Of a DNA stretch of 64,000 bases, positions 41,181-61,310 are shown one piece after another. The notes under the pieces are model-generated. The model had not been told where the DNA came from. It saw only the letters and a list, made by a program, of their open reading frames with translations, and searched no databases. The position numbers and the translations under genes were made by a program. This DNA comes from Desulfurococcaceae archaeon (GTDB taxonomy: Archaea > Thermoproteota > Thermoprotei_A > Sulfolobales > Desulfurococcaceae). The stretch is from positions 124,001 to 188,000 of the forward strand of contig JAWBQJ010000001.1 of NCBI GenBank assembly GCA_038845865.1, in the 5' to 3' direction. How positions within the stretch are numbered: the stretch's first letter is position 1; every line of letters starts with the position of its first letter.

Positions 41181-41362
41181 AGGGTTCAGCGATCCGTTTT
41201 CGGCCCTATGGTAGTGCGGGGAACAATGTAGAGGAATTAGTAATATTTTTTATTTTCCCTTTGTTTACCGGATGACCACCTTGTGCAACTGTTTCGGTTT
41301 TCGTATTTGTTCGTATTGGTTGATATTGATAGAAATGTTTATAAACACCTTTATACAGCAAT

Positions 41363-41550
41363 ATGCGGAGGTACCTCGATGGGGGATCGAGAGCTCTCAA
41401 CAAGGGCTCTCCTCGAGACACAGCAAGATGTGGGGTGCTCGGGGTCGCCCTGAACACCCCAAAGGGTAATGCAAACCCAAGACCAATGCAGGGGAACAGA
41501 GATGAAGCGATGACACCAACCAACATAAACCTATATAAGAGCTGAACCCC
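41363..41550 (+). mobile_element. Relic of IS605-type TnpB 3' end with right end
   Basis: The frame from 41363 reads like the C-terminal tail of archaeal TnpB proteins (RCGVLGVALNTPKG, then GNRDEAM and NINLYKS), with nothing of the upstream catalytic domain left. A strong hairpin lies at 41432-41460 (GGGGTG/CACCCC around GGG/CCC). In intact elements this same region, 3' end of tnpB plus right end, encodes the guide RNA scaffold, and the bases after the right end act as guide. The element ends at 41550 with GAGCTGAACCCC, shared with a second relic at 61253. The rest of the gap (41181-41362) is AT-rich with promoter-like stretches only. Confidence 0.6.
41491..41550 (+). repeat. 60-base right-end repeat, copy 1
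   Basis: Begins GGGGAACAGAGATGAAG and ends TATATAAGAGCTGAACCCC. It aligns with 61253-61310 over its whole length with one 2-base gap. Several differences are third-position changes in the frame G-N-R-(D/N)-E-A-M, as expected of a coding remnant. Flanks differ beyond the final CCCC in both copies, marking the element edge. Confidence 0.75.
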
Positions 41551-42806
41551 TAACCAGCTAGTAAGACCTTCTCCCTCTCCAACGTTCTTAGTGAAATGGT
41601 CATTACCGCTAACGAGAGCATCACTAGGAAGGAAACACTCGCCGCCACCATATTGTAGTCCCCGTACACGTAGCTTTGAATAATGAGAATGCTGTGAGCG
41701 TATGGGACTGCCAAGAGGGCTGTGAATATTTCACGTGATAGCTTGTAGAAATCCACCATCCAGCCCGAGACGAAGAATGCAAGCCCTACAATCGAGAGAA
41801 GTCCTGCAATGTTACTTGCGGTTTTAATACCACGTGTTCTTGTTATGAAAGGTATTGAAATCGACACCGTTACTAGTATCGTCAAGAACGCTGTGAACGC
41901 GTGTAGTAGTACAAGTCTAGCATCGTACACGGCCATGAACCAGCCCCCCAGAGCGGTAACGAGCACTCCAAAATACGCCAGCAAGCCGAGAATATCGGCT
42001 AGGGAAGCTATCAAACCTATTACCGACGCAGCAACGATCTTGGCTACTAGCATGTCCCATAACCCCGCGGGAGATGCCAATAGCATTTCCATGGTTTTCC
42101 TCTCGCGTTCGCCTACGATACCATCAATTATGAAAGACGATGCCGGCGTAACTATGAAGGAAAATGAGAGGATCAGTAACCTAGCGATGAAAGGTCTTAC
42201 GATGTCCTCGGGCTTAGCAGGCTCGCCCTTGGGAGTGACGTATACTGGAACTTTGATTTGAACGGGGTTTCTAATGGCCTCCACGCTATATTCCTCCACA
42301 CCGGCCTTCTCGGCTAATTCGCGTATCTTCATCTCAGATAAACTCAGAGATATGCTCGTAATAGTGTTTCTAACATCCTGCTCGACTCGGTTAACCCTTT
42401 CTTCCGAAACTCCAGCGCGCCTGATTATCTCTACGTATGCTACTTTATCAAAGCTCGTTGCGTTTTCGTGAAAGCCCCCAGGAATAATCAGGATCAAGTC
42501 TATTGTGGCGTTTCTCAGCGCCGATTCCAAGTCATCCACCTCGACCACGGAATGGCCTGCCGAGGTGAGTGCGCTGACTACGTTCTCAATAAACCAGCTA
42601 GTAACAGTACTTGGGCCGGCGTCCTCGTTCACTATAGCGATTACTACTGGCTGGTAGTAAAGGAGCAAGGCGGTGAGAAACCCTATAGCCGGTAATGAGA
42701 CCAAGGGAAACAATATAGTGGTCGCCACTAGTTTCTTATCCCTTGAGATCTCTTTCAACTCCTTCCATAGCAGGATTCTAAGCTTCTTGGCGAGCTTCAA
42801 CCTCAA
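41550..42806 (-). CDS. ABC-2 type exporter permease (NatB-like)
   Basis: A 418-aa membrane protein of the ABC-2/NatB class: one N-terminal helix, a large extracytoplasmic domain (about 45-205), then five or six helices with the family signature IIDGIVGERERKTMEMLLASP. It pairs with the ATPase whose stop codon overlaps its start. TTG 42806 or TTG 42800 (better spaced from AGGTGAT) begins it. The TAG stop takes its last base from the TnpB relic at 41550, so the original C-terminus may have been changed by the insertion. The substrate is unknown; sodium, drugs or lipids are all known for the class. Confidence 0.85.
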   Translation of the reverse strand: MRLKLAKKLRILLWKELKEISRDKKLVATTILFPLVSLPAIGFLTALLLYYQPVVIAIVNEDAGPSTVTSWFIENVVSALTSAGHSVVEVDDLESALRNATIDLILIIPGGFHENATSFDKVAYVEIIRRAGVSEERVNRVEQDVRNTITSISLSLSEMKIRELAEKAGVEEYSVEAIRNPVQIKVPVYVTPKGEPAKPEDIVRPFIARLLILSFSFIVTPASSFIIDGIVGERERKTMEMLLASPAGLWDMLVAKIVAASVIGLIASLADILGLLAYFGVLVTALGGWFMAVYDARLVLLHAFTAFLTILVTVSISIPFITRTRGIKTASNIAGLLSIVGLAFFVSGWMVDFYKLSREIFTALLAVPYAHSILIIQSYVYGDYNMVAASVSFLVMLSLAVMTISLRTLEREKVLLAG

Positions 42807-43519
42807 TCACCTACAACAACTTCGAAGACTTCTTCGAGGTTTTTAGCACCGTATTTCCCTAGAAGCTCATCCACGGCACCCTCGGCAATTATTTTACCTC
42901 CATATATAAGCCCTACCTTATCGCAGAGGTACTCTATTTCAAGCATGTTGTGGCTACTAACTATGACCGTTGCCCCCGTTTCAACGACGTATTTCCTAAT
43001 GGCTCTCCTAACGGAGAGGCTTGCATGCACGTCCAGCCCCGCCGTGGGCTCGTCGAGCAACGCGACTTTAGGTCTCCTCATGAGCACTAACGCTACTAGA
43101 AGTCTACGTTTCATGCCCTTACTGTAGGTCTTTGTGAGATCGTACAGCCTACTACCTAGGGCGGCTAGTTCCACCCCGTACTTGATACTATCGCTTGAAG
43201 CCCCATAGAGGTTTGCGTAGAGAACTAGGTGCTCGTACCCGGTTAATAAGTCGTACGTATTTGCGTCCTCAGGTAAGTATCCGATATATCGACGCGCCTC
43301 TTCGTAGTTCCTGTAAGGGTCTAGTTCACAGACCTTCACGGATCCTTTAGCTGGCTTTGCGAGCCCCGCCAGTATCCTCAAAAGCGTGGTTTTGCCCGCA
43401 CCGTTAGGTCCTACGAGCCCGTAGACCTGGCCTTCCTTCACTGTTAATGAAGCCCCTCGAAGTGCCTGAACCTTACCGTAGTTTTTGTAAACCTCTTTTG
43501 CTTCGACTACAACACTCAC
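42803..43519 (-). CDS. ABC-2 exporter ATPase (NatA-like)
   Basis: A 238-aa ATP-binding subunit: Walker A GPNGAGKTTLLR, YLPEDANTYDLLTG after the Q-loop, signature YSKGMKRRL (a KG form typical of ABC-2 exporters), Walker B VALLDEPTAGLD, H-loop SSHNM. It overlaps the permease gene by four bases. It is a paralogue of the ATPase at 48164. Family certain, cargo unknown. Confidence 0.9.
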   Translation of the reverse strand: MSVVVEAKEVYKNYGKVQALRGASLTVKEGQVYGLVGPNGAGKTTLLRILAGLAKPAKGSVKVCELDPYRNYEEARRYIGYLPEDANTYDLLTGYEHLVLYANLYGASSDSIKYGVELAALGSRLYDLTKTYSKGMKRRLLVALVLMRRPKVALLDEPTAGLDVHASLSVRRAIRKYVVETGATVIVSSHNMLEIEYLCDKVGLIYGGKIIAEGAVDELLGKYGAKNLEEVFEVVVGD

Positions 43520-61252: not shown

Positions 61253-61310
61253 GGGGAACAGAAATGAGGCAATGAAATCACCTAATAATCTTATATAGGA
61301 GCTGAACCCC
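61253..61310 (+). repeat. Right-end repeat, copy 2
   Basis: A 58-base copy of the sequence at 41491-41550, from GGGGAACAGAAATGAGG to TATATAGGAGCTGAACCCC. Same end, one 2-base deletion, scattered substitutions. Its frame reads G-N-R-N-E-A-M before a TAG at 61296. Confidence 0.75.

Follow-up and report, generated by a model that had tools for sequence, protein, structure and literature searches.

At one point in the window, the 64,000-nucleotide (64-kb) stretch of DNA analysed here, which belongs to a 1.45-Mb draft genome of 8 contigs (G000), the right end of a TnpB-type transposon meets the stop codon of an ABC permease gene. An earlier note on this DNA described a TnpB relic starting at 41363, suggested that its insertion may have ended the permease early, and proposed that the retained guide-RNA scaffold could regulate the exporter. 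The coincidence from which it started is literally true: base 41550 is the last base both of the right end and of the permease TAG (41552-41550, minus strand). The locus raises the question of whether the insertion altered the permease and, beyond that, of what kind of element was inserted.

The permease is an ABC-2 type protein of 418 aa (41550..42806, minus strand; Pfam PF12698, E 1.8e-23) with the C-terminus REKVLLAG*, and its ATPase gene lies upstream of it (42803-43519). The ends of its orthologues mark it as full length. In 35 of the 39 other genomes of the family, the alignment of the orthologue extends to query residue 416-418, and in 29 relatives with no insert at the site the protein stops no more than a few residues from where the permease of the window stops. 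The 29 printed ends read REKVLLAT*, REKVLLAG*, REKVLLAK*, REKILLASEK* and similar, the longest (L029) having four extra residues. The nearest of these orthologues are 67% identical and have different DNA downstream, which makes them the closest comparison and not an empty site in a close strain; matches in two Desulfurococcaceae archaeon metagenome assemblies show 60% and 57% identity. When the flanks of the insert were rejoined by script, the stop fell in the same codon, after VLLAG, as TAG or TAA, under all four placements of the boundary (-1 to +2 bases). Since the orthologue C-termini are unchanged and the rejoined flanks restore the stop, the permease was not shortened. That the insertion made the stop codon and truncated the protein draws on the right end supplying the third base of the TAG, but the insert-free relatives and the four rejoined boundaries make it extremely unlikely; an unchanged end in relatives lacking the relic is also the outcome that the earlier note had itself set against its proposal. 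At the level of sequence, the C-terminus is the natural one and the insertion site lies at a pre-existing stop codon, and the coincidence is explained by the flanks with no predicted effect on the protein.

Elsewhere in the family the right end can supply a neighbour's stop, unlike in the window: at L063 and L077 a convergent neighbouring ORF overlaps the right end by about 20 bp and takes its stop codon, a TAG, from there. In a first sample, the right end lay within 25 bp of the right-hand gene in 8 of 26 copies with a called gene, where the spacers of the window would lead one to expect 7% (binomial p about 2e-4 to 4e-4, from hand-counted totals). A rule that right ends abut the 3′ ends of convergent genes was rejected as a general one, with only 1 of 23 in a genome from another family of the order (G119). 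By eye, sequences like C/D box small RNA genes (GATGATGAACCC...TATGAAGTATTCAGCCTTAGCTGATC) lie just 3′ of the stop of the permease orthologue in several relatives (L041, L042 and L052).

The inserted DNA is a 272-bp mini-element (41279-41550, plus strand) that has its own left and right ends on the same strand. The left end (CCTTGTGCAACTGTTTCGGTTTTCGTAT..., 41279..41328) carries a motif common to full-length TnpB elements (L077, L070) and mini-elements; its consensus matches at 41279-41280 with 1 mismatch, the sole match with 6 or fewer mismatches in 64 kb, 270 nt upstream of the right end. Homology to other copies extends up to this point, and the mini-elements of G119 begin at the same base; the CC at 41279-41280 may belong to the target or core instead of to the element. 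Inward of the left end stands a TATA-like box (41338..41346, with TTATAAA at 41339-41345), probably the former tnpB promoter, as TTTATAAAC also precedes the TnpB start of L077 and L070. It is followed by a 5′ coding remnant of tnpB (41363..41422) that aligns with ATGGTGAGCTACTCCGTGAGGGGTGAAGAGCC...GGGCTCTCCCCGAGGG of the intact gene and holds the start codon position and an inverted repeat, GAGAGC...GCTCTC, which is able to fold as a hairpin and shows covariation. This remnant has been joined to the 3′ portion of the element, where the C-terminal codons of TnpB, RCGVLGVALNTPKGNANPRPMQGNRDEAMTPTNINLYKS*, overlap the presumed guide-RNA (reRNA/omega-RNA) scaffold (41423..41545). Here the six-frame translation matches TnpB residues 377-416 at 51%, and the scaffold shares 87% identity with its counterpart in an intact G119 TnpB element. 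A right-end hairpin that covaries in the family (41521..41538) is degraded in this copy, with 3 of 6 pairs kept, and the right end closes with the terminal ATATAAGAGCTGAACCCC (41533..41550), which recurs in the genome.

This order, in which left end, TATA-like box and first tnpB codons pass straight into the last 40 codons and the right end, identifies an internally deleted mini-element. The description in the earlier note is borne out as far as it concerns the DNA at 41363-41550, which by the C-terminus match and the scaffold identity is TnpB-derived and contains the guide-RNA scaffold and a right end shared with a second site in the window. Its starting point and its restriction to a 3′ part have to be given up: both ends were located, and base 41363 is the old tnpB start codon position and not the left edge of the element. 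The residual ORF (41363-41545) is in frame with the TnpB C-terminus in its C-terminal half, the last 40 TnpB codons; on our own reading of the aligned sequences, an indel has put it out of frame with the N-terminus. At 272 bp, and with a residual ORF that is C-terminus alone, the element is too short for a transposase. A 106-aa minus-strand ORF (41206-41526) spans the mini-element and similar minus-strand frames occur in other copies; these apparent frames we put down to DNA homology alone.

Both homologues of the same short form and intact parents were found in other genomes. A sample of 197 genomes from 74 genera of the order yielded the scaffold in 26 genomes and 10 genera. Copies of the short form, about 256-282 bp long, lie at sites unrelated to this one in a second species of the genus (L055 in G036, 76% identical over 278 bp to the window copy) and in G119, where full-length mini-elements stand at 27 separate sites with different flanks and are mostly 76-83% identical to the window copy. 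Most of the full-length G119 alignments run from query base 1 or 3 to 270; all 27 copies begin CCT and nearly all end CCCC. To the left of the CC, G119 copies prefer (A)AG, with G in 26 and A at -2 in 22 of the 27; on the right, the flank is close to random. The window copy reads CCA|CC against the preferred (A)AG|CC, so target choice is not fully explained, and none of the compared loci shares its insertion site. About 19 copies are found in G001, some of them 197-229 bp long with a different deletion junction.

The intact parent elements are about 1.5 kb long, have the same ends, and encode a TnpB with D/E/D motifs (L077/L090 in G035, L136 in G099, L170 and L176 in G119). In L077 (about 1514 bp), the left end GCCCTTTTGCGACTGTTTTGGTTTTCATATAGG, TTTATAAAC, ATGGTGAGCTACTCCGTGAGGGGTGAAGAGCC..., the TnpB C-terminus and the right end follow one another. 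At least 3 TnpB genes in G119 are open over essentially the whole protein, and two of these genes, checked in detail, lie in elements that measure about 1495 bp, share the family's ends and encode VNFDN, VLENL and GDRDV, which we take to be the D/E/D motifs expected of a RuvC nuclease. The window copy agrees with these IS1341-type transposons (L077, L136, L170/L176) in left end, right end and scaffold, and differs from them in that they are coding elements whereas it has lost nearly all of tnpB.

Elements of a comparable kind are the palindrome-associated transposable elements (PATEs) of Haloquadratum walsbyi, which are short, non-coding and present in many copies, which lack inverted terminal repeats and target duplications, and some of which are IS605/IS1341-type TnpB transposons minus their core (PMC3119063). 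The window mini-element is likewise short, belongs to a multi-copy family, has a core-deleted TnpB origin, and shares its ends with full TnpB elements. Its ends (CCTTGTG.../...GAACCCC) form no inverted terminal repeats, and inspection revealed no target duplication in the flanks of the window copy or of the 27 G119 copies. As to near-terminal palindromes, the right-end hairpin covaries in the family and is degraded in the window copy, at the right end only. The present family differs from PATEs in its hosts, being found in Desulfurococcaceae and other families of the order, and in what it retains: the tnpB promoter region and the whole scaffold (about 270 bp), whereas PATEs consist of fused ends only (52 bp). 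Judged by layout, the family is one of crenarchaeal PATE-like, internally deleted TnpB elements; core-deleted TnpB mini-elements are already known as PATEs in Haloquadratum, and the window copy adds a member.

In all, 9 places in G000 carry the scaffold and right end. The second site in the window is a right-end fragment of the same family (61253..61310, plus strand; 58 nt matched), which carries ATATAAGAGCTGAACCCC at 61293-61310 and for which no left end was found. A search of G000, a draft assembly in whose gaps an intact copy may lie, for an intact TnpB of the family or a full-length nuclease-dead homologue returned fragments only: one at C1:361.6-362.8 kb with many stops, one at C6:38.8-39.6 kb that has lost an internal part and contains a stop, and one at C7:15-867 whose start falls at a contig end and which extends no further than residue 311. 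Y1 transposase and serine transposase/resolvase are each represented in G000 by a single, decayed match. An IS607 origin, brought to mind by the CC at both ends, was rejected on the grounds that serine TnpA loci of the genus are without these ends; neither the right nor the left end of the window copy was found in the fetched parts of the genus's serine TnpA-TnpB loci. Complete serine-recombinase TnpA-TnpB pairs (IS607-type), with a TnpB of a different group, are present in sister species of the same genus (L083, L084, L085).

The explanation we favour, with a probability of about 0.9, is that the window element is a non-autonomous mini-element, a TnpB-only transposon with an internal deletion, which was moved in trans, inserted beside an existing stop codon, and is now old and immobile, with the permease intact. 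An internal deletion in an IS1341-type element would have joined the left end, promoter and first tnpB codons to the tnpB 3′ end, scaffold and right end. The product would then have been moved by a transposase encoded elsewhere and have landed next to the permease stop codon, leaving the gene intact. The copy would now be old and immobile in G000 because the genome contains only broken TnpB copies and decayed Y1 and serine transposase matches. If the promoter still works, a short RNA composed of the scaffold and antisense permease sequence could be made. The mini-element structure and the intact permease are the parts of this account that can be read from the DNA itself.

Alternatively, a full-length TnpB element could have inserted at this site and lost its middle afterwards. 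Decay in place clearly occurs in G000, as the copies on C1 and C6 illustrate, but the same short form with a near-identical layout is present at 27 sites in G119 and at unrelated sites in G036. Such a distribution accords with transposition as a mini-element and makes loss in situ very improbable here. A different alternative concerns function: the window copy might be a domesticated guide-RNA gene whose antisense guide controls the exporter, through a TnpB-like protein or by base pairing. The TATA-like box and the scaffold are kept, and the putative guide position, placed by analogy with TnpB loci in host DNA at 41551..41570 (plus strand), would indeed read antisense into the permease 3′ end, as the earlier note had it. 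A TldR-like regulator is a full-length nuclease-dead TnpB homologue, and its guide has its target elsewhere, typically in a promoter. TldRs, nuclease-dead TnpB repressors with guide RNAs (PMC13418256), resemble the present case in the idea of a TnpB-type guide beside a host gene and in nothing else; no TldR-like protein and no promoter target were found for the window copy. The 18-nt putative guide matches only itself in the genome at up to 3 mismatches, it lies at a 3′ end and not at a promoter, the insertion site is not common to relatives, and the right-end hairpin is degraded. Domestication is very unlikely on this evidence. A regulatory role of any kind for the window mini-element is unlikely because no TnpB partner for it was found in G000, and the proposal that a TnpB right end here shortens and controls a transporter, having failed in both its parts, is a false lead removed.

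TnpB guide RNAs are known as omega-RNA or reRNA and in archaea also as sotRNA (PMC10097598, PMC12558985). The 3′ part of the mini-element is homologous to the DNA that encodes them, the tnpB 3′ end plus right end with a guide expected just outside, with the differences that the window scaffold is not attached to a tnpB gene in a genome where no intact TnpB was found, and that it has no Rfam match, either at the gathering score or at E up to 1. Compatible with the favoured origin is the view that mini-elements are stand-alone guide-RNA genes used in trans by the TnpB of full-length elements, which would aid their persistence, the window copy having been orphaned. In G119, 27 full-length mini-elements occur beside intact TnpB elements; the scaffolds of the two TnpB elements checked share 75-97% identity with the mini-element scaffolds, and their identity to the scaffold of the window copy is 87% and 81%. 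Of the 27 mini-elements, 18 have an exact TTATAAA and 22 have it with one mismatch allowed, and certain hairpin pairs change together in copies too short to code for TnpB. With intact TnpB, similar scaffolds and a promoter-like box kept in most copies in the same genome, mini-elements in G119-like genomes could make guide RNAs for TnpB in trans. Against this view, scaffold variation in G119 is dominated by two inherited haplotypes that are present also in the TnpB elements and so may be no sign of selection acting in the mini-elements; along the element, conservation is even (80-90% mean identity per 25 columns), which may only reflect recent common descent; and the mini-elements of G001 have a different junction and no 5′ hairpin. 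We consider use in trans a possible but tentative reading. More tentative still is its extension to the whole family as TnpB-less mobile guide-RNA genes, expressed from the old tnpB promoter with their own right flank as guide, by means of which TnpB in trans would cut empty sites and keep the mini-elements in the population. The interest of the family, which is modest, lies mainly in this question of trans guides, as it arises in relatives that have TnpB. Where a genome combines dozens of mini-elements that keep the scaffold with a few intact TnpB genes, trans use of nuclease-less guide RNAs becomes testable; if true, it would mean that guide RNAs without a nuclease gene of their own maintain non-autonomous transposons.

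The structure of the scaffold was examined across the family. At the right-end hairpin, 78% of cells are paired, where shuffles give 73% and the best slid control 62%, and covariation is 0.227 versus 0.160, with counts of two-sided changes not above those in shuffles; these pairing changes are consistent with a structure in the family. RNAalifold found almost no consensus over all right ends (-3.3 kcal/mol) and -38.6 kcal/mol for closely related mini-elements, among which there are two inherited haplotypes. A conserved function of the 5′ hairpin was rejected, given its absence from the G001 mini-elements; the hairpin goes back to an inverted repeat that tnpB itself contains. The 3 of 6 pairs left in the right-end hairpin of the window mini-element we read as the sign of an old copy whose maintenance has probably ended.

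Among the remaining loci, L066 (G024:C7:6.9 kb) has a left-end motif (3 mismatches) 1036 bp before a right end, and the largest ORFs between them are membrane protein-like and not TnpB; it is possibly a mini-element with cargo, or a product of chance. At L002 (G000:C6:39.4 kb) and L058 (G024:C17:28.2 kb), in two genera, the right end lies upstream of the same membrane-protein gene (30% identity over 242 aa), followed by a small cysteine-containing ORF (52%), and the flanking guides differ; the likeness reflects either shared ancestry of the site or coincidence.
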